From a virus: a DNA stretch of 23,415 bases. The notes under the pieces were generated by a model. The model made no database searches. It had not been told where the DNA came from and worked only from the letters and a program-made list of their open reading frames with translations. The position numbers and the translations under genes were made by a program. Location: IMG/VR virus record IMGVR_UViG_3300009514_000091, positions 1 to 23,415 of that record. One strand, 5' to 3'. Below, piece after piece: positions 1 through 11,014 of the stretch; within the stretch, counting starts at the first letter, position 1; every line of letters starts with the position of its first letter.

Positions 1-36
1 TCGTCGCGGTCGTCGTCGCGGTCGTCGTCATCGTCG
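1..36. repeat. 12-bp tandem repeat, cut by window edge
   Basis: Three units of 12 bases follow each other: two identical copies of TCGTCGCGGTCG and a third with two changes. The repeat begins at the first base, so more copies may lie outside the window. In the third reading frame each unit encodes Val-Ala-Val-Val (the last Val-Ile-Val-Val), so the repeat builds most of a hydrophobic helix in the partial gene listed next. Confidence 0.7.
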
Positions 37-272
37 TAGCCATCCTCGTTCCTCCTGACCCGCTTCGGGGTCGTCCACCAGAGCACCACGCCCTGACACC
101 CACTACGCTACACACCGTAGCGCAGTGGCGCAAGCACAAAACGACATCGGGCCTAGAAAAAACCAGCTGGCGCGGCGCAAGCCAGCGCAAACACTGGACT
201 CTTCGCTGCTATGTGAACGGTGTTCACAACGTGGTACGCGCGTGGCACCTCGAGGGGGTCGAGGCGTACTAA
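3..272 (+). CDS. C-terminal part of a small membrane protein (partial)
   Basis: This open frame enters from the left edge and stops at TAA 270-272, giving 89 visible residues with no start codon in view. It opens with about 17 hydrophobic residues (Val/Ala/Ile-rich), a plausible transmembrane helix. A Pro- and His-containing hinge follows, then a basic, Trp-containing tail (WRKHK, then CYVNG and RAWHLEG near the end). Third codon positions favour G/C, as in the other genes. The stop codon lies next to a hairpin, which fits a real gene end. No family was recognised. Small membrane proteins of this shape occur in phage lysis and late regions, but that function is not shown here. An overlapping frame (125-430) was considered less likely because it lacks a ribosome binding site and runs into low-complexity G-rich DNA. 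Confidence 0.45.
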   Translation, partial: VAVVVAVVVIVVAILVPPDPLRGRPPEHHALTPTTLHTVAQWRKHKTTSGLEKTSWRGASQRKHWTLRCYVNGVHNVVRAWHLEGVEAY

Positions 273-292
273 GTACGAAGACCTTCGTACTT
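271..292 (+). terminator. Hairpin at end of upstream gene, possible terminator
   Basis: AAGTACGAA (271-279) pairs perfectly with TTCGTACTT (284-292) around the four-base loop GACC. It starts inside the TAA stop of the upstream frame. The stem is AT-rich and the downstream stretch (CTCTTTGCT) is only weakly T-rich, so this is a poor match to a classical rho-independent terminator. It could instead be an operator or an mRNA-end stabiliser. Confidence 0.4.
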
Positions 293-414
293 CTCTTTGC
301 TGTATGTGTCCCCCGGCTTGGAGCCGTGGTCCACGTGTGGTATGGTGGATGGGCGGAAGGGGGGGAGAGGGAGCCTGCGACCGATGGGGCCAGCGCGGAG
401 CGCCTGGCCCAGCT

Positions 415-442
415 GGGTGAGGGGGGGTAAGGGGGGAGCGGG
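415..442 (+). other. G-quadruplex-type motif, + strand
   Basis: Four G-tracts of 3, 7, 6 and 3 bases are separated by three-base loops (TGA, TAA, AGC), a textbook G-quadruplex pattern. The same G6 tract (431-436) can instead form an 8-bp hairpin with the C-run at 443-450 (GGGGGGAG / CTCCCCCC, loop CGGG). Two alternative structures therefore compete for it. Confidence 0.6.
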
Positions 443-500
443 CTCCCCCCCACCATATGATGGTAGGGGGTTGGGGTTTGAGCCCCGCCCCCAGATCGGA

Positions 501-526
501 GGGGGGTGTCCTGGGGTGGGGAGGGG
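501..526 (+). other. Strong G-quadruplex-type motif, + strand
   Basis: Tracts of 6, 4, 4 and 4 G are separated by loops of 6, 1 and 1 bases (TGTCCT, T, A). Short loops and four-G tracts are the features expected of a very stable quadruplex. The second half (513-526) also pairs with the C-rich block at 580-597. Confidence 0.65.
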
Positions 527-597
527 TGGACCCCTCCCCCCCGATCTTGATCGGGCCACCGAGGAGCTCCTCGAGGAGACCCACCCCACCCCACCCC
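513..597. repeat. Nested inverted repeats with minus-strand G4
   Basis: The arm 513-529 is complementary to 581-597 at 16 of 17 positions. Between the arms lie a perfect 7-bp inverted repeat with a 2-base loop (540-555, CCCGATC TT GATCGGG) and two overlapping 12-bp palindromes (561-572 GAGGAGCTCCTC and 567-578 CTCCTCGAGGAG). The right arm reads CCC-A-CCCC-A-CCCC-A-CCCC (580-597), so the minus strand carries a G-quadruplex motif with one-base loops. The whole could fold as a branched stem-loop or cruciform. Confidence 0.6.
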
Positions 598-623
598 GGG
601 GGGTACCCCGGGGGGTACCCCCC
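593..623. repeat. 12-bp palindromic tandem repeat
   Basis: ACCCCGGGGGGT occurs twice back to back (593-604, 605-616), followed by a partial third copy (617-623). Each unit is close to self-complementary. It adjoins the minus-strand G-quadruplex motif and may be an array of protein-binding half sites or a replication-slippage product. Confidence 0.6.
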
Positions 624-716
624 ACCATCGCCGGGATGGGACCCAAAGGTACATCGCGTAACGGTACCCTTCTCTCTAAATTCAAGCCCTGTACCAACCA
701 CCACCTCGTGCCTAAC

Positions 717-740
717 TTGGGTAGGCCCAAAAGGAGGCCT
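717..740 (+). promoter_or_regulatory. Ribosome binding site with two competing hairpins
   Basis: AAGGAGG (731-737) is the strongest Shine-Dalgarno sequence in the first part of the window and lies 10 bases before ATG 748. Just upstream, TTGGG (717-721) pairs with CCCAA (726-730). Alternatively AGGCC (723-727) pairs with GGCCT (736-740), which would place the Shine-Dalgarno in loop and stem. The two pairings exclude each other, so translation of the first small gene could be switched. This regulatory role is inferred. Confidence 0.45.
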
Positions 741-747
741 TGTTTCT

Positions 748-906
748 ATGCGGTTGGCTCCAACTTCGGTTGACCTCGTCCCGGTGGTTTTCTTCCCGAC
801 GTCCTGGGATGCTGCTTGGGAGCGGTTCCGGGCTCGTTCGAGGTCCCGGTGGGACCAGGTGGTGTTGGTCTACTCTGGTGTAGAGATGGGGCTTCGTGAT
901 GGCTGA
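748..906 (+). CDS. Small phage protein, unknown function (52 aa)
   Basis: ATG 748 is chosen because AAGGAGG stands 10 bases upstream. The frame is open far upstream, but only through the low-complexity G-rich leader. The product has an N-terminal PTSVDL motif, a Trp- and Arg-rich middle (WDAAWERF, RSRSRWDQ) and a short hydrophobic VVLVY strand. It is the first of a chain of eight very small genes and overlaps the next start by 8 bases. The SVD[IL] motif near the N-terminus recurs in the products of 899-1126 and 1293-1529, so the three may be distant relatives. No known family was recognised. Confidence 0.6.
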   Translation: MRLAPTSVDLVPVVFFPTSWDAAWERFRARSRSRWDQVVLVYSGVEMGLRDG

Positions 907-2168: not shown

Positions 2169-2371
2169 CTGGCATCCACTGCCACGACTGCGGTGGGTGG
2201 ACCTCGACAGCGGTCTTGGAGAGGGCCGGGTCGTGCAGTTGGTGTGGTTCACCGCGAACGTCGTTCGCAATTCGCTCGGGGCCTGAAGATGGACTGGAAG
2301 GATTGGCTGGCTCTGGTGTTGATCGTCGCGGTCATGATCGCGGGTCTCTTGCTCTTGATGGTGGTCCTTGA
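2165..2371 (+). CDS. Small zinc-ribbon protein
   Basis: GTG 2165 overlaps the previous TGA as GTGA; GTG 2156 is an alternative. The first 30 residues contain CHDC (C6, C9) and CSWC (C24, C27), two Cys-x2-Cys knuckles 14 residues apart, which is a zinc-ribbon arrangement. Such ribbons bind nucleic acid or protein partners. From about base 2282 the frame loses its G/C third-position bias and turns into Gly/Asp/Arg-rich sequence, while another frame starting at ATG 2289 gains it. The true C-terminus may therefore lie near base 2286, with a one-base frame change. The listed end is that of the uncorrected frame. Confidence 0.55.
   Translation: MTGIHCHDCGGWTSTAVLERAGSCSWCGSPRTSFAIRSGPEDGLEGLAGSGVDRRGHDRGSLALDGGP
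2289..2371 (+). other. Membrane-helix reading frame crossing the zinc-ribbon end
   Basis: In the frame beginning at ATG 2289 the translation reads MDWKDWLALVLIVAVMIAGL and continues hydrophobic to about residue 28 (then ERPG). This is a clean single transmembrane helix. Of the 18 codons in the hydrophobic part, 16 end in G or C. In the zinc-ribbon frame the same bases give almost only T-ending codons. The frame stays open to 2729, but beyond about 2371 it is a shadow of the nuclease. It may be a short membrane protein whose stop has been lost to an indel, a sequencing error, or a true overlapping gene. Confidence 0.45.
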
Positions 2372-2736
2372 GCGGCCGGGCCTCGAGGAGAAAGGGTCAC
2401 GACTACGAGCGCCAACTGGCTCGTCTTCTGCGGGATGTGTTCCCCCAGGAGGGCGTGAAGAGAGGGTTCCAGACCCGCTTTGGTGGGAAGGAGGAGGCCG
2501 ACGTGGTCGTGCCTCACTTTCACCTCGAGGCCAAGCGGCAGAAGCAGCCCAACATCAGGGCCGCCTTGCGCCAGGCGGTAGCAGACTCCCAGGGAGGGAA
2601 GGTCCCGATCGCTATTACGAAGGGCGACCGCGACCCAGATATCGTGTCTATGAGGCTCGAAGACTGGATGGCGCTGGTGGCGGAGTGGTGGAGCTTGCGG
2701 AGGAAGGAGCCGGGGGTGTCTGGGTCTAACGAATGA
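2368..2736 (+). CDS. PDDEXK-type nuclease (resolvase-like), 122 aa
   Basis: The N-terminal motif RRKGHDYERQLARLLRDVFP, then EADVVV and HLEAKRQ around residues 46-58, gives the order E, D, ExK expected of a PDDEXK nuclease core. Phage relatives of this shape are annotated as Holliday-junction-resolvase-like or VRR-NUC-like endonucleases that resolve branched DNA before packaging. TTG 2368 is used as start because a stop lies in frame just upstream and the nuclease motif follows within ten residues. It overlaps the previous stop as TTGA, with no strong Shine-Dalgarno. Its position directly before the large terminase fits a role in clearing packaging substrates. The exact substrate is inferred. 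Confidence 0.75.
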   Translation: MSGRASRRKGHDYERQLARLLRDVFPQEGVKRGFQTRFGGKEEADVVVPHFHLEAKRQKQPNIRAALRQAVADSQGGKVPIAITKGDRDPDIVSMRLEDWMALVAEWWSLRRKEPGVSGSNE

Positions 2737-2740
2737 CCAG

Positions 2741-4384
2741 ATGAAGGAGATCCTCGCCTGCCGGCGAGACCTCCTGTATGCGATCCAGACGTACGGGACG
2801 CTTATCGACAAGCGCACCCGCACGATCAAGCCGCGCCTGTACCCGGCGCAGTTGCTGCTGCACAACACCCTCGAGAACGACCCATGGGTCATGATCTTGA
2901 AGGCCAGGCAGCTCGGCAGCACCAGCTACGTGGCGCTACGGTTCTTCTTCAAGACCCTGCTGAACAAGAACTTCCGGTGCGCTGTGGTGGCCCATACGAG
3001 AGAGGCCGCGGAGCAGATCTGGAAGATCTACAAGACGATCTACGACCACCTCCCCGAGTGGTTGAGGGTGGAGTCGTCCTCCGACAACGCGAGGGAGCTC
3101 GCGTTCGCCCATGGGGGCTACCTGCGGGTGGGGTCCGCCGGCTCGATGAGCTGGCGCGGGAGCACGTTCAACGCCATCCACGCAAGCGAAGTGGCGTTCT
3201 GGGAGAACACCGAGGAGTCGGTACGCGCCCTGTTCCAGGCCGCGTCCGATGGGTCCGAGGTCATCCTCGAGACAACGGCCAACGGCCTGAACGCGTTCAA
3301 CCGGATCTGGTACGGCAGCGACGGGTTCACCCGGCTGTTCTTCTCGTGGACGATGGACCCGCTCTACCTGAACACCAGGGTCCCCAGGACCCTGACCGAG
3401 CCGGAGCAGGCCTACATCACCGAGCACGAGCTCGAGCCTGACCGCGCCAATTGGTTCGTCCAGACCCTCAGAACCAAGTGTCTGGGGTCGATGGACACGT
3501 TCAACCAGGAGTATCCCATCACGCCCGAGCTGGCCTTCCTGGCCAGCGGCGGACCGTTCTTCACGGTTCGGTACCCGCCCGAGGAGTCGAACCACCACCC
3601 CAAGCTCAAGAGCACCGGGTGGGTGATCTACGAGAAGCCCAAGGAGTTCCGGTCCTACATCCTCGGGGCCGACCCGGCCTCCGGCTCTCAGAGCAAGGGC
3701 GCCTCGTACTCGGCGTGCGTCGTGATCGACATCACAGATCGCGAGTGCATGACCGTCGTCGCCACCTTCCAGCAAAAACTTCCCACCTGGCAATTTGCTA
3801 AACAGATCCTCGAAAAGGCCGAGGAATATCACGCACTTGTGGTGGGCGAGGTGTGGCGTGGAGGGCCCGGTGAGGAGGCCAACGGACAGGCGGTACTTGA
3901 CTACTTACTTGACGCCGAGTACCCATATCTGTATCGTCGGCTCTCAAGAGAACGGATCGGGGGGCAGATGCAGCAGCTGTTCGGATTCGCGACCACGTCA
4001 AAGACCCGGCCCCTGATGCTGGGTCGAGCCCACGAGGCCATCGACATGGGACACCTGGATCCGGTGTGCTGCCGCCTCAAGTCCGAGATGAACTCCTTCA
4101 GGTACAACGAATCGGGCCGCCCGATGGCGTCCGAGGGGGAGAACGACGACCTGGTGATGTCGATGTCGCTGGCCATCATGGGCCTCGACCAGGCGAACTT
4201 CTACCAGGACGAGATCCAGCGCCGCAGACGGCCCCGAACGAACCGGGAGTGGCTCGAGTACGAGGCGCAGACCGGAAAGCTCGGCGACGAGATCGCCGAT
4301 GACGAGTTTCTTGACAGTCCGTGGGACGCGATCATCGACGAGCCGCCCTTGGGCAGGGCTCGTCGATGGGTGCAGCCCACATGA
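2741..4384 (+). CDS. terL: Terminase large subunit (packaging ATPase-nuclease)
   Basis: This 547-residue protein is the motor that pumps DNA into the prohead and cuts concatemers. The ATPase domain shows a Walker A-like KARQLGSTS (residues 54-62), a Walker B region NAIHASEVAFW with the SE variant (~144-154), and the coupling motif ETTANG (177-182). The nuclease domain shows GADPASG (D311), VVGE (E370) and NDDLVMSMS (D469/D470), the acidic triad of an RNase H-like fold. The start at ATG 2741 lies 5 bases after the nuclease stop and lacks a strong ribosome binding site, so it may be translated by coupling. The length is normal for the family. Confidence 0.95.
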   Translation: MKEILACRRDLLYAIQTYGTLIDKRTRTIKPRLYPAQLLLHNTLENDPWVMILKARQLGSTSYVALRFFFKTLLNKNFRCAVVAHTREAAEQIWKIYKTIYDHLPEWLRVESSSDNARELAFAHGGYLRVGSAGSMSWRGSTFNAIHASEVAFWENTEESVRALFQAASDGSEVILETTANGLNAFNRIWYGSDGFTRLFFSWTMDPLYLNTRVPRTLTEPEQAYITEHELEPDRANWFVQTLRTKCLGSMDTFNQEYPITPELAFLASGGPFFTVRYPPEESNHHPKLKSTGWVIYEKPKEFRSYILGADPASGSQSKGASYSACVVIDITDRECMTVVATFQQKLPTWQFAKQILEKAEEYHALVVGEVWRGGPGEEANGQAVLDYLLDAEYPYLYRRLSRERIGGQMQQLFGFATTSKTRPLMLGRAHEAIDMGHLDPVCCRLKSEMNSFRYNESGRPMASEGENDDLVMSMSLAIMGLDQANFYQDEIQRRRRPRTNREWLEYEAQTGKLGDEIADDEFLDSPWDAIIDEPPLGRARRWVQPT

Positions 4385-5327: not shown

Positions 5328-6608
5328 ATGGTCGCCACTCTCGCAACGTTCACGAATGTCCTCAAGGAGGATTTTGAGCCTGAACTGCTCAGGATCCTCA
5401 ACAACGAGACCGAAGTCTGGAACGCGTTCATGCGCGGCACGGCCAAGTGGGAAGGCCGGAACTGGAACAAGTCCATCAAGACGTCCCGGAACAGCGGGAC
5501 GGCCTACACCGACGGTACGCTCCCGACTGCGGGGCAGCAGGGCTACCAGCGCCTGCAGGGCACCGCCAAGCGCCTCTACGCCACGGTGCACATCGATGCC
5601 CTCCTGATGGAGGCCGCACGGAGCGGCGGCATCAACCAGGTGATCGACTGGGCCGAGGGCGAGCTCCAGGGTGTCGTCGAAGACCTCTCGGTCTACGCCG
5701 ACCGGCGCCTCGTCAGCGGCGGGACCTGCGTCGGCTTCCTGAGCGGCCAGAGCAACGCGGCCACCCAGAACTTCGACGGCGACTTCGACAAGGTGGCCGC
5801 GGCCATCGCGGCTGGCGGCGGTACCTGTACGGTGTCCGTCATCCGCGGCGACACCTACGCGGCAACGGCGGGCACCCTCAACGCATCCGATGCGGTCAAC
5901 GGCACCGTGACCTTCACGGCCGCCTTCGACACCACCCCGGCCGACAACGACCGGGGCTGGGCCGTCGTCATCAACGACGCCGCCGTTGAGGCAGCGCTCA
6001 ACACGGCCTTCCAGCCGGTGGGCATCTACGGGAACCTTGGGCTGCCGACACACCACAGCGTCGACCGCACCACGGCGACCGGCACGGCCACGGTGCTGCA
6101 GAGCCTGATCTTCCGTCAGCCCACTCTGGAGAACCAGACCCGCGTGGCCCTGACCCGGGCGCGCATGAAGCGGGTGATGACTGAGATCTACCTGGCGTCC
6201 GGCAAGCGCCCCGACGAGATCTGGATGCCCGCCCGCCAGATCGAGCGCTACGAGGACATCGTTCTGGCGACGACCAACGTGAGCCAGATGCATGTGTCCG
6301 GTGAGCGCGCCACCCGCGGTGACGCGGGCATCGCTGCGAAGTCCTCGGACGAGACCGGGCTCAGCTTCGAGGGGATCCCGATCAAGCGCAAGCGCCACCT
6401 CGACAACGGCCTGATCCTGTTCATGCAGACCAAGAACAAGGGCTGGACGCTCGAGGAGCTCCGCAAGGGCGGGTTCGAGTCTCGCGGCGGCGGTATTCTG
6501 CAGCCGGTGGGCGGCGACGACTCCTTCGAGGGCTACTGGAAGGCGTACCACGAGCTGGTGTGCTGCAAGCCGAACCGCCAGGCCGTCCTGACCGGACTGG
6601 CGCTGTAG
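5328..6608 (+). CDS. Major capsid protein, HK97 fold
   Basis: This 426-residue protein matches a group of HK97-fold capsid proteins that begin 'L.e.f.pel...lnNEtevw' (here FEPELLRILNNETEVWNAF, residues ~16-34). They continue with 'nsGtaytdGTLPTAGqQgY' (GTLPTAGQQGY, 63-73) and a helix with 'dl..yadRrLvsG' (119-131). Residues ~165-215 form a beta-rich Thr/Ala stretch that looks like a surface insertion. The start ATG 5328 follows AGGGAAAG and lies 18 bases after the scaffold stop. The C-terminal half includes the well-conserved block FEGIPIKRKRHLDNGLI. It assembles the icosahedral shell around the scaffold. Confidence 0.9.
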   Translation: MVATLATFTNVLKEDFEPELLRILNNETEVWNAFMRGTAKWEGRNWNKSIKTSRNSGTAYTDGTLPTAGQQGYQRLQGTAKRLYATVHIDALLMEAARSGGINQVIDWAEGELQGVVEDLSVYADRRLVSGGTCVGFLSGQSNAATQNFDGDFDKVAAAIAAGGGTCTVSVIRGDTYAATAGTLNASDAVNGTVTFTAAFDTTPADNDRGWAVVINDAAVEAALNTAFQPVGIYGNLGLPTHHSVDRTTATGTATVLQSLIFRQPTLENQTRVALTRARMKRVMTEIYLASGKRPDEIWMPARQIERYEDIVLATTNVSQMHVSGERATRGDAGIAAKSSDETGLSFEGIPIKRKRHLDNGLILFMQTKNKGWTLEELRKGGFESRGGGILQPVGGDDSFEGYWKAYHELVCCKPNRQAVLTGLAL

Positions 6609-6611
6609 TCG

Positions 6612-6812
6612 ATGGACACGCTCCTCCAGGTTCTCCTGTCCCTCTCCCTCCTGCTGCTCATGGCGGTACTGGTGCTCCTCGGCCTCTTCCTCCGGGGGCT
6701 GATTGATGAGCACCGGGAAACCAAGCAGTTCCTGCAGGGGAACCTGGAGGAGCCCTCCTCCCCAACAGACAACATCTTCAGACTACAGGGAAAACCATGG
6801 GACGACACGTAA
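6612..6812 (+). CDS. Small single-helix membrane protein (66 aa)
   Basis: The gene starts 3 bases after the capsid protein stop and overlaps the next start by 16 bases. Residues ~4-30 are almost entirely Leu/Val/Ala/Met and form one transmembrane helix (LLQVLLSLSLLLLMAVLVLL). A charged RGLIDEHRETKQF and a polar tail follow. Third positions are strongly G/C, which supports real coding. No good ribosome binding site is visible, so expression by coupling to the capsid gene is likely. It could be a lysis-related (holin- or spanin-like) or membrane-penetration factor, but nothing specific was recognised. A membrane protein is unexpected between capsid and decoration genes. Confidence 0.65.
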   Translation: MDTLLQVLLSLSLLLLMAVLVLLGLFLRGLIDEHRETKQFLQGNLEEPSSPTDNIFRLQGKPWDDT

Positions 6813-7633
6813 AAGGGACGAGCAAGGCGCCTTGCCGAGCAGCCACCACCGCGAACATCACCCTCTCCGCAACCCAGACCATCGACGGCATCGCCATCGG
6901 GGTCGGTGACCGGGTTCTGGTGAAGAACCAGACCTCCGCCGACGAGAACGGGATCTACGTCTGCCAGACCGGCACCTGGACCCGTGCCGACGACTTCGAC
7001 CACGTCAACAACGTGCTGCCTGGCAGCTCGGTGTACGTCACCGAGGGCACGGTCGCCGCCGGGCAGACCTGGGTGCTGAGCAACACGCTGCCCCTGGTGG
7101 TCGACACCACCGACCTCGTCTTCACCCCCATGAAGGGACGAGGGCAGCTGTTCATCGGCGCCACCGAGTTCGCCCCCGGCACGGGCACCTGGACTCCAGG
7201 CGTGACCGCCGCGAACGACTGGCCGGACCTGGTTCGCACGGCCGCGGCGTCCGACCAGTTCGTCCTGGCGGCTGTCAACGTGCCTGGCGCGGTCACTGGG
7301 TACACGGTGATGTACAACGTGCTCACCGCCATCGCCGATGACGTTCGGTGTGAGCTCATCCGCGGCACCATCCCGGCCGAGGGTGCGCCCGCCGGCGCAG
7401 CCACGGTTCTCTGCGGTGCCCTCGCTGACGATGGCACCGAGCTCCCGGCCGGGACCGACACCCCGGCAGAGCGCCAGACGGTGGATGACCACACCCTGAT
7501 CTACACGGTGCAGGCCGCGAACCAGGTCCGCCCGACGGACCAGCAGTTCACGTACCTGAAGTTCATCGCCGAGTGCGCCGGCGCAGCCACCTCGGTCGTG
7601 AGCCTCAGCGGCGTCGTGGTGTACTACGACTGA
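6797..7633 (+). CDS. Fibre/decoration-like virion protein (278 aa)
   Basis: Residues ~13-110 contain a phage structural module with the signature 'aaTtaNItLsatqtiDGiaigvGDRVLVKNQ', 'ENGIYv', 'gtWtRadDf', known from tail-fibre and baseplate proteins. Residues ~117-278 form a second beta-rich domain (RGTIPAEGA, TYLKFIAE, ending SGVVVYYD). The start ATG 6797 has AGGGAAAA upstream, very similar to the capsid gene's site, which suggests high expression. The position right after the capsid protein, and before the portal, points to a capsid decoration or head-fibre protein. Family evidence alone would say fibre. Which virion part it decorates is inferred. Confidence 0.65.
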   Translation: MGRHVKGTSKAPCRAATTANITLSATQTIDGIAIGVGDRVLVKNQTSADENGIYVCQTGTWTRADDFDHVNNVLPGSSVYVTEGTVAAGQTWVLSNTLPLVVDTTDLVFTPMKGRGQLFIGATEFAPGTGTWTPGVTAANDWPDLVRTAAASDQFVLAAVNVPGAVTGYTVMYNVLTAIADDVRCELIRGTIPAEGAPAGAATVLCGALADDGTELPAGTDTPAERQTVDDHTLIYTVQAANQVRPTDQQFTYLKFIAECAGAATSVVSLSGVVVYYD

Positions 7634-9015
7634 TGGCTAGGCACACCCCCCGCCAGCCGGTTGTGTTGGTCCAGGCAGCGTCGACGGCCGACGTCTCGCT
7701 GCCCCGGACCGGCACGGCCACCGTCGACGGGGTTGCCCTCGTAGAGGGTGACCGCGTCCTCCTCAAGGACCAGGCCACGGGCTCGGAGAATGGGGTGTAC
7801 CTCGTTCATGTCGGGCCCAACTGGGAGCGAGACCCGAACCTCTCGGTCACGGCCAACTACTTCACGGGGCAGCGCTTCTACGTGCAGGCCGGAACGGCCA
7901 ACGCGGACACGTTCTGGACGCTTGCCACCGACACTCCGTTTGCGCTCGACGCTACCGCGCTCACCTTCAGCGAGACCACCGTGGCGCTGGCCGACAGGGC
8001 CACGACGGCGGCGCTCGGATCGGACGGTGACCACGGCACCCGGGGCGGTGGAACGCTGCACCCGATTGCCACCGACGCGGCCGAGGGGTTCTTCCCGCAG
8101 TCCTACTTCTTCAACGCGGGCGCCTGGCCGACACCTGCCGACACGGACGCTGCGGGGTGGTCAGACGGCAGCATCTGGGCCGAGAAGTCGCCGCTCGGCA
8201 AGAACCAGTACAATGTTTGGTACTGCTACGACGCCTCGGCTGGCCTGTGGTTGCGGATTCCGGCGGAGTTCCAGCCGGTGGAGGCGACGAACCCAGCCGC
8301 CGGGTTCGCCGAGACGGACTCCCGCCAGAACCCCAACACGTTCCGGCTGAACGAGCACTTTCTCATCAAGGCCGGCGGGTCGCTCCCACTCCCGTGGGCG
8401 ACCCAGACGACCGATCCCGGCACCGCGGCTCCCACCACCACCTTCGTCAGCACGTCTGCGACCAACGACCTGCAGGGCGAGGTGCAGCTGGCGTTGTCGG
8501 TGGACAACGAGGCCGAGACCCACGCACTGACCTGGAACGACGGGCTCTGGTTGCCGATGCGCAACCAGGCCACCGGCGGGATCATCCAGGCTCGGATCAG
8601 GTTCGCTGGGGAGCCGTACACGGCGACCACCGAGGTGGTGTTCGGCGTGATGGGCGCCTACTCCTCGGCCTTCACCGGCGGCAACTACGCCTGGTTCAAG
8701 GTCAAGACCGGGTCCGACCTGTTCATCGAGTGCAACGACGGCAGCGGTGCCCAGAGCGAGGATACTACCATCAACGTGGCCGCCGCCACGGTCTACGATC
8801 TGAAGATCGACCTGACCGACTCGACCGCAGTCAGGTTCCTGTACAAGACGTGGCCGTCAGGTGCGTGGACGGAGGTGACTCCGAGTCCGCTGGACTTCAG
8901 CAACGTCGCTGACCACAACTTCCAGCCGGTGGTTGGCATCAAGAAGACCACCGGTGCTGTCGCGGACGATGTCTGGGTCGACTACGTCGATATCTGGTGG
9001 CAGACGGATGAGTAA
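7633..9015 (+). CDS. Fibre/decoration-like protein, lectin-like C-terminus
   Basis: ATG 7633 overlaps the previous TGA (TGATG); the longer start at 7573 would run inside the previous gene. The 460-residue protein repeats the same N-terminal module as its neighbour: TVDGVALVEGDRVLLKDQ (~30-47), SENGVYLV (~51-58), NWERDPNL (~63-70). A Gly/His linker follows (~128-150), then a Trp/Tyr-rich middle domain and from ~285 a beta-sandwich-like region (QARIRFAGE, YAWFKVKTG, VYDLKIDLTD, WVDYVDIWWQ). That region resembles concanavalin/laminin-G-type carbohydrate-binding folds. It is probably a head or tail fibre with a sugar-binding tip, an inference from fold-like patterns. Confidence 0.6.
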   Translation: MARHTPRQPVVLVQAASTADVSLPRTGTATVDGVALVEGDRVLLKDQATGSENGVYLVHVGPNWERDPNLSVTANYFTGQRFYVQAGTANADTFWTLATDTPFALDATALTFSETTVALADRATTAALGSDGDHGTRGGGTLHPIATDAAEGFFPQSYFFNAGAWPTPADTDAAGWSDGSIWAEKSPLGKNQYNVWYCYDASAGLWLRIPAEFQPVEATNPAAGFAETDSRQNPNTFRLNEHFLIKAGGSLPLPWATQTTDPGTAAPTTTFVSTSATNDLQGEVQLALSVDNEAETHALTWNDGLWLPMRNQATGGIIQARIRFAGEPYTATTEVVFGVMGAYSSAFTGGNYAWFKVKTGSDLFIECNDGSGAQSEDTTINVAAATVYDLKIDLTDSTAVRFLYKTWPSGAWTEVTPSPLDFSNVADHNFQPVVGIKKTTGAVADDVWVDYVDIWWQTDE

Positions 9016-11014
9016 GAAGGGCAACGAGCCGGCGTTTCCAGGCAACTTCTCTCGGGAGATTGAGCGCTCCAAGAGCAACAAGTCCGAGTTGGAGTACCTG
9101 TGGGACTACTGTCTCCTCTTCCTCGAGGGGAAGCAGTGGCTCTGGTTCACCAAGGACCAGCGCCGGTTCAACCTGGACTCTCGGGGTGGCACGAAGAAGG
9201 TCACGATCAACCTGCTGATCAACCTCTATCGTGCCATCCTGAGCCGTCTCTCGCTCAACTACCCATCGGTCACGGTGCTGCCGGGCAGCCCCTCATCGGA
9301 GGACATCGCGAAGGCCAAGTCCTCCGACCTGGCCCTCCAATACTACTGGACCCAGCAGAAGCTGAAGCACAAGATGCGCGACATGTTCGCTTGGGGCATC
9401 ACGTGCGGCAACTGCGCCATCCACACCTACTTCTCACGCGAAGACGAGGATGTCCGCAGCGACGTCATCTCGCCCTTCGACCTTTTCTACGAGGACGGGG
9501 TCTCGACCATCGAAGAGGCCCGCTGGGTCGCCATCCGGTCCATCGTCCACAGGGACGACCTCAAGGCCAAGTACCCGGACAAGGCCTCGGCCATCAACAG
9601 GATGTCCACGGGCGAGCGTCCCAACGAGCGCCGTGTCGAGGACATCGGCACACACTCACCGAGTGTCGGTCCAGCCGAGGACCGGCTCGAGGTGTACGAG
9701 GTCTATTGGCGGGACGGCCGGCACGGCATCGTGGTGAACGACCTCTGGCTCTGGAAGGGCGAGTGGGACCTGCCAGAGATGCCCGTGCAGCACTACCGGT
9801 ACACCGAGGTGCCCGGGATGCTCTGGGGCATCGGCGTTCTCGAGCAGGTGCTGGATCTGCAGTACCTGTACAACAAGCGCCGCGGTCAGCTGATGGAGAA
9901 CATCGACCTCAACAGCAACATCCGCTGGTTCGTGCCCAAGAACTCCGGCATCCCCAAGAACTCGATGACCAACCGCCCCGGCGAGATCATCCCGTTCAAC
10001 CCAGCCGGCGGACCGCCGATCCCCATCGAGTCCCCGTCGATGGCACCGCAGATCTTCGATGACCTGGACCGCATGGTCCAAGAGATCAGCGACGTGTCGG
10101 GCCTGCACTCCACGTCGTTCGGCAAGCGCGTTGCGGGCATCAACTCCGGTCGCGCCATCGAGGAGCTCTCGACCCAGGACCAGAGCCACCTGGGCATCAG
10201 CCAGGAGATGGCTGAGGAGCTCGTGGCCAACCTCTCTCGCGTCGTGCTGTCGCTGATGAAGCAGCACTACAGCGAGCAGAAGATGATGCGAATGATGGAT
10301 AGCACCGGCGGGGTGGTCTTCCACTACCTGTCGGGCACTGACCTGGTGGACGACCCCGAGGTCTTCATCCAGGGCGGCACCATGTTCCGCACGGACGCCG
10401 AGGAGCGCGACCGCAGGGTCCTGCGCAACCTCGAGATCGGGGCCATCACCCCCGAGGACGCCAAGGATCAAATGTCCGAGCGTCCCGGAGACCGGGACGG
10501 CATCGAGAAGCTGGCCACCACCAAGCACGCCCAAGAGCTGCTTGAGGCCGCCAAGCAGGGCGCCACCATCGAGATCTTCCCATCGGACGACATCGAGGTG
10601 TTCGAGCAGGTCTGGGGCGAGTACATCCGCAGCCCCGAGTACTACGAGCTCCCGCCCAACCCGCTGGGCGCGCAGACGCGCCAGCAGGTTATCCCGGTGA
10701 CCGGCCCAGCAGGCGAGCTGATCTCCCAACAGGTCCTTGATGTGCCCATCGCTCCCGGCGAATACATCCGGGACGTCTACATGGCGCTCATCACGTTCGG
10801 GCAACCCTACCCGGTTTATGAGGAGGCGCGGGCGGCGAAGGTCTTCCCGAGAACGCCAGAGGCCGGCATGGGGCCGGCCAACGCGATGCAGCAGCAGGAG
10901 CATCAGGCCAACTCTCGAGCGCAGGACCAGCACCCGGGTCGAGCACCGACCGCGCCTCCTCTGCCGGGTGTAGTCCCGCCCGGCGGGATGAGCGGGATGG
11001 GAGGTAGCGTCTGA
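9008..11014 (+). CDS. Portal protein (P22-like)
   Basis: The protein has 668 residues from ATG 9008, which overlaps the previous stop by 8 bases. Starts further left fall inside the preceding gene. The N-terminus shows the portal pattern of a helix followed by EGKQW (residues 40-44), then KVTINLLINLYRAILSRLS with a conserved Asn-rich segment and repeated 'D.L.vYEdg' type strands. The block SGLHSTSFGKRVAGINSGRAIEEL (positions ~373-396) matches the 'sG.....g.....~Sg.Ai..l' crown-stem region of P22-type portals. The C-terminus is Gln/Pro/Gly/Met-rich. It forms the dodecameric ring through which DNA enters and leaves. Here it follows the capsid and fibre-like genes, whereas most phages place it before the capsid gene. 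Confidence 0.88.
   Translation: MSKKGNEPAFPGNFSREIERSKSNKSELEYLWDYCLLFLEGKQWLWFTKDQRRFNLDSRGGTKKVTINLLINLYRAILSRLSLNYPSVTVLPGSPSSEDIAKAKSSDLALQYYWTQQKLKHKMRDMFAWGITCGNCAIHTYFSREDEDVRSDVISPFDLFYEDGVSTIEEARWVAIRSIVHRDDLKAKYPDKASAINRMSTGERPNERRVEDIGTHSPSVGPAEDRLEVYEVYWRDGRHGIVVNDLWLWKGEWDLPEMPVQHYRYTEVPGMLWGIGVLEQVLDLQYLYNKRRGQLMENIDLNSNIRWFVPKNSGIPKNSMTNRPGEIIPFNPAGGPPIPIESPSMAPQIFDDLDRMVQEISDVSGLHSTSFGKRVAGINSGRAIEELSTQDQSHLGISQEMAEELVANLSRVVLSLMKQHYSEQKMMRMMDSTGGVVFHYLSGTDLVDDPEVFIQGGTMFRTDAEERDRRVLRNLEIGAITPEDAKDQMSERPGDRDGIEKLATTKHAQELLEAAKQGATIEIFPSDDIEVFEQVWGEYIRSPEYYELPPNPLGAQTRQQVIPVTGPAGELISQQVLDVPIAPGEYIRDVYMALITFGQPYPVYEEARAAKVFPRTPEAGMGPANAMQQQEHQANSRAQDQHPGRAPTAPPLPGVVPPGGMSGMGGSV

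Follow-up and report, generated by a model that had tools for sequence, protein, structure and literature searches.

Phage leaders can influence transcription without being translated. In HK022, the put sites specify an untranslated antitermination RNA that acts on polymerase in cis, allowing it to pass terminators. R-loops (RNA:DNA hybrids) left by transcription may also prime replication, as in ColE1-type plasmids and at the mitochondrial G-rich element. The influence of such structures on transcript output has been studied with T7 RNA polymerase. With quadruplex motifs in the non-template strand downstream of the start, R-loops form and output rises (PMC7341879), and on supercoiled DNA quadruplex/R-loop formation suppresses the output of the same polymerase (PMC11982182).

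Here we analyze a G-run-rich leader in an uncultured phage whose linear IMG/VR record was examined in full (23,415 bases, both ends open; hereafter, the window). Considering the motifs of the leader together with the T7 RNA polymerase precedents, we favor its interpretation as a structured, R-loop- and G-quadruplex-prone leader that would tune elongation into the late operon (probability about 0.45).

Genomic setting of the leader

All confident genes of the window are on the + strand and point rightward. TerL, MCP and portal genes lie downstream of the motif cluster (Table 1), in agreement with the preliminary description, which had placed the cluster in a phage leader. Small genes are tightly packed or overlapping from 748 to 2736, up to TerL. 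The place just before TerL is taken by a PDDEXK_15 endonuclease in the window and by other genes in sister phages; in one of these, L067, a DnaB-like helicase and a CHAP-like endolysin (named by eye from sequence) are found further upstream of TerL. Base skew shifts at the TerL start: the + strand is T- and G-rich over 500-2740 (AT skew -0.12 to -0.20), with A mostly in excess from 2741 onward. Two adjoining decoration/tail-fibre-like proteins (6797-9015) match the same PHROG families. At the DNA level, the gene of the first matches Curtobacterium phage Sunfish (76% over 143 b) and Gordonia phage GMA4 (74%), which suggests domain exchange.

The preliminary description also took the cluster to follow the end of an upstream gene. 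This part could not be upheld. The codon scores of ORF 3-272 are poor, and this frame lacks a start in the window. Instead, an AGGAGG is present on the - strand at 56-51, 7 nt ahead of an ATG at 43-41, and the only positive codon score within positions 1-120 belongs to a - strand frame. Judging from 14 codons only, a leftward gene probably starts at 43, and the region 44-747 is most likely a divergent junction between leftward and rightward arms. The same junction is seen in L067, where leftward small genes extend up to about 5.3 kb and rightward genes run from 5696. The annotated distant relatives DS1, Shocker and Brad have this architecture as well. The T6 hairpin at 157-186, which would lie in the leader of the leftward gene, was seen in the - strand sequence; its 9-nt loop places it outside the limits of the terminator scan.

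According to codon scores in all frames, no frame of the leader is clearly coding. The candidate promoter contains TGNTATNNT, which occurs nowhere else in the window on either strand; as the promoter was picked by eye before occurrences were counted, we treat it as a lead only. The region 353-747 is likely the untranslated leader of the rightward operon, comprising the small genes, TerL, capsid and portal.

Table 1. Features of the divergent junction and the main downstream genes (window coordinates).
Feature	Position	Strand	Remarks
5' end of probable leftward (early-arm) gene	1-43	-	M A T T M T T T A T T T A T...; ATG at 43-41; runs off contig
Terminator-like hairpin	157-186	-	GCTGGC..GCCAGC, 9-nt loop, then tgg TTTTTT; reads leftward
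Palindrome	212-228		TGTGAACggtGTTCACA; possible operator
10-bp hairpin	271-292	+	AAGTACGAAG/CTTCGTACTT, then CTCTTTG; weak rightward terminator-like
Candidate promoter	318-346	+	TTGGAG-17-TATGGT, extended -10 (TGG); consensus match; predicted start about 353
G-quadruplex motif	351-371	+	Overlooked in the preliminary description
Predicted untranslated leader of rightward operon	353-747	+	About 395 nt
G-quadruplex motif	415-442	+
9-bp hairpin	431-450	+	GGGGGGAGC gg GCTCCCCCC; overlaps quadruplex motif 415-442
Outer inverted repeat (I13)	493-504 / 536-547	+	AGATCGGAGGGG / CCCCCCCGATCT
G-quadruplex motif	501-526	+	Top G4Hunter score of window (2.60)
16/17 inverted repeat	513-529 / 581-597	+	Inside pair I2 (510-529/581-600, 90%)
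10-bp hairpin	518-539	+	GGGGAGGGGT gg ACCCCTCCCC
7-bp hairpin	540-555	+	CCCGATCttGATCGGG
Overlapping palindromes	560-578		CGAGGAGCTCCTCG and CTCCTCGAGGAG
G-quadruplex motif	580-597	-	GGGGTGGGGTGGGGTGGG, 1-nt loops
12-bp tandem	593-621	+	ACCCCGGGGGGT x2.4
Perfect 12+12 inverted repeat	598-609 / 612-623	+
Ribosome site	729-737	+	AAAAGGAGG; strong; ahead of ATG 748-750, partly within hairpin 723-740
First gene of rightward operon	748-906	+	52 aa; ATG 748-750; no assigned function
PDDEXK_15 phage endonuclease (PF24608)	2368-2736		Immediately upstream of TerL
Large terminase TerL, T4 type	2741-4384	+
MCP	5328-6608	+
Portal, P22-like	8933-11014	+

Quadruplex motifs, hairpins and predicted folds

We scanned both strands of the whole window for quadruplex motifs, defined as four runs of G3+ separated by loops N1-7. 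The + strand has exactly three, all of them in the cluster, and the - strand has six, one of which (580-597) belongs to the cluster. The five motifs outside it (17149, 20249, 20466, 23135 and 23222) are all on the - strand. Thus, the two + strand motifs and the single - strand motif initially reported within 415-623 were all recovered, and the additional motif at 351-371 brings the cluster to four motifs inside 247 b (351-597). The accompanying statement that nothing similar occurs elsewhere in the window holds for the cluster as such. It does not hold for individual - strand motifs, nor for hairpins, which extend beyond 415-623 (also 106-122, 212-228, 248-264 and 271-292).

The cluster is real and exceeds what is expected by chance: in dinucleotide shuffles of the window, more than two motifs per 210 b were seen in 0/200, and none of the 200 reached four motifs in about 250 b. 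However, when 273-747 was shuffled alone, at least three motifs appeared in 43/500 cases, and therefore local G-richness accounts for part of the quadruplex signal. There are 12 runs of G>=4 in 353-747 (1.84 expected), and the G fraction of the non-template strand is 0.55-0.60 at 411-450 and 491-530.

The 16/17 inverted repeat, the further perfect palindromes and the 12-bp tandem noted at the outset were likewise confirmed. Hairpins with stems of at least 7 bp cover 76 stem bases in 290-747, compared to a mean of 10.8 in dinucleotide shuffles and 14.4 in run-preserving ones (0/300 in both cases). For the entire 44-747 region, nine stems of at least 6 bp make up 146 bases versus 24.5 in shuffles (0/200). 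Among the 95 sequences longer than 5 kb that were compared, the window included, this hairpin array is the densest. RNA folding gave a modest signal (z = -2.4 for 290-747 and -2.85 for 415-623). The exact pattern of the double GGTACC palindrome was sought in IMG/VR and no occurrence was found. Streptomyces linear replicons carry telomere-like palindrome arrays; this identity was considered for the present array and rejected, since the array is internal to the contig.

The preliminary description proposed that alternative structures compete, and the folding of growing prefixes of the predicted transcript agrees with this, bearing in mind that the quadruplex energy model is rough for long G-rich RNA. 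In the model, quadruplexes are favored in partial transcripts: those ending at 440-620 fold about 20-48 kcal/mol better with quadruplexes than without. In the transcript to 530, quadruplexes are predicted at 351-371, 415-442 and 501-526, with a gain of 48 kcal/mol. In longer transcripts the first and second are predicted to be lost as C-rich and downstream sequence appears, and in the full leader only the 501-526 quadruplex remains. A switch between quadruplexes and hairpins is thus predicted as the transcript lengthens.

Leaders of sister phages

Relatives were sought in IMG/VR, GTDB species genomes, and phage and plasmid records. The junction DNA produced only chance-level matches in phages and plasmids, and no homologous leader DNA was found. 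When TerL, MCP and portal served as single-protein queries, GTDB included, essentially no relatives were returned. Alignment-based queries retrieved an IMG/VR contig group with 34-38% identity in TerL, 38-40% in portal and about 29-36% in MCP. Most of these contigs begin downstream of the leader and two, L067 and L109, reach it. The TerL of both is ~35% identical to that of the window. The two share about 94% DNA identity over much of the late region, and as such near relatives they amount to about one independent observation. The first gene of L067, used as a query, matched only itself. A contig with 28% TerL identity (L003) is AT-rich and was set aside as irrelevant; a hairpin-dense stretch in L026 (2577-2876) turned out to be an AT-rich terminator-like region.

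The L067 and L109 leaders do not align with that of the window, nor with each other beyond 10-15 nt. Nevertheless, in all three the G4Hunter maximum falls in the + strand leader (2.60 in the window, at 501-526; 1.88 in L067; 2.16 in L109). In L067 and L109 the peak is directly before the first rightward gene; no scored segment outside reaches it, and the remaining pieces of both contigs also stay below it. By arithmetic from leader and locus lengths on one strand, random placing would put the maximum in the leader with a chance of about 0.8% (window), 0.5% (L067) and 0.2% (L109), the last two values not being independent. The comparison is post hoc and involves about two independent lineages.

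The similarity is confined to the G-runs. The hairpin array is absent from the sister leaders, the leader sequence examined in L067 and L109 contains no full G3N1-7 motif, and the predicted fold of the L067 leader is not more stable than those of shuffles (z 0.30). We also considered a tRNA-like T-arm in the two sister leaders, but it was not supported. In the preliminary description, homologous phages without the structures were to count against it; the sisters do lack the hairpin array, but they keep the G-run peak. The more distant DS1, Shocker and Brad have no G-rich leader, so this feature is not general to such junctions. A strong G4Hunter peak of L008 is located at another place, and phage DS1 (L004) has two + strand quadruplex motifs at 6704-6805, in an intergenic stretch flanked by leftward genes. 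The presence of a different but likewise G-rich sequence at the leader position in two distant sisters points to a structured RNA/R-loop control region.

The contig ends of the two sisters differ. L067 crosses its leader without a break. Its far end (L119:1078-2028) re-enters the early genes (L067:4-1194) at 88-93% identity, suggesting either that the early region is duplicated or that the map, of about 34.2 kb, is circularly permuted and was assembled across strain variants. L109 begins with CTGAGGGGAGGGGAGCGGGGGAGAG inside the leader, 62 nt before the first ATG, and its other end finishes with ...CGGGGAAAGGGGG after a leftward gene (L117:1-110 of the same 34,863-b IMG/VR contig). Since both ends (L109:1-62 and L117:1-110) are in G-run-rich leader, the assembly broke there, which could reflect either sequencing dropout at G-runs or a real end.

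Possible roles of the leader

In the mechanism that we favor, the packaging/virion operon would be transcribed rightward from a promoter near 318-346. With the non-template strand rich in G-runs right after the start, an R-loop would be favored, and quadruplexes might form on the displaced strand as well as in the nascent RNA. Once the C-rich half (531-623) is made, hairpins would capture part of the G-runs. The leader structure could thereby set how frequently polymerase reaches the late genes, by pausing it, by re-initiation or by protecting the 5' end of the mRNA. The promoter, the R-loop and each regulatory step are inferred, and the effect could go in either direction, raising or lowering output. 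For an R-loop-forming leader, the G-rich non-template strand is present and the candidate promoter just upstream is a consensus match only.

Hairpins could also act more directly, either on polymerase itself, as in HK022 put, or by switching between read-through and stop. Such attenuation or processive antitermination would fit a long operon preceded by a long leader with successive hairpins, as well as the predicted alternative folds. However, no T-run follows any hairpin in 353-623 on either strand, so that the leader is not an attenuator of the classical kind, and the scan placed terminator-like hairpins only outside this region (271-292 and 723-740). In addition, Rfam 15 has no match to the leader at gathering score, only sub-threshold ones (miRNAs, BjrC80 etc.) that we treated as chance on G/C runs, and no hairpins are common to the window and L067. 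We consider this explanation unlikely. Of the three roles initially put forward (origin, packaging/termination site, attenuator) the attenuator is nonetheless the best supported, provided it is broadened to an elongation-controlling leader; intrinsic termination does not survive. Alternatively, the junction may be a non-coding spacer whose structures serve no function of this kind, with hairpins and runs arising where G/C runs undergo slippage and template switching, or with palindromes that bind proteins and are unrelated to RNA structure. The tandem of inverted repeats (593-623) and the overlapping palindromes (560-578) are expected products of such events, the structures are not shared with L067 and the leaders diverge freely, yet the G-run peak recurs on the same strand and at the same place in the sisters, making this account rather improbable.

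The other two initial suggestions gained no positive evidence. A replication origin primed by an R-loop that transcription leaves in the leader is compatible with a divergent non-coding junction and its G-rich non-template strand, but no iterons and no AT-rich unwinding stretch were found, no initiator was recognized in the window, and GC skew does not switch at the leader; we give this possibility a small chance. Least probable is a packaging (pac/cos) site or physical genome end. The leader does lie upstream of the terminase genes, and L109 ends exactly inside its own leader, with the opposite end of the contig in a different part of a similar leader. However, TerL is of the T4 type, a group in which headful packaging without cos is the rule. 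Furthermore, L067 was assembled straight through the junction and re-enters its own early region as a circularly permuted map would, and sequencing dropout explains the L109 break equally well.

If the R-loop/quadruplex-prone leader is confirmed, it would represent a natural phage case of late-gene control by G-quadruplex/R-loop formation, in which the physical character of the leader is conserved while its sequence is not. The break of a sister metagenome assembly exactly at the leader would likewise be explained, and a simple search rule would be available for other phages, namely, that the highest G4Hunter score of the contig lies ahead of the first late gene. A bolder and, at present, doubtful extension is that the lineage maintains a fast-evolving late leader, free in sequence and constrained to a G-run-rich non-template strand, with non-B structure as the selected late-gene switch.

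As to known systems, the strong GC hairpins of the leader resemble those of intrinsic terminators and attenuators, which differ in having a T-run. HK022 put leaders are similar in that an untranslated RNA with successive hairpins opens a long phage operon. In contrast to them, the present leader has no sequence or Rfam resemblance, is far more G-rich and has no identified target terminators downstream. Unlike the designed T7-type templates (PMC7341879, PMC11982182), it is a natural phage late leader with an array of perfect hairpins, known from sequence alone. Like those templates, it has G-runs beyond the predicted start in the non-template strand, and, as in those systems, R-loop/quadruplex formation would compete with other structures.
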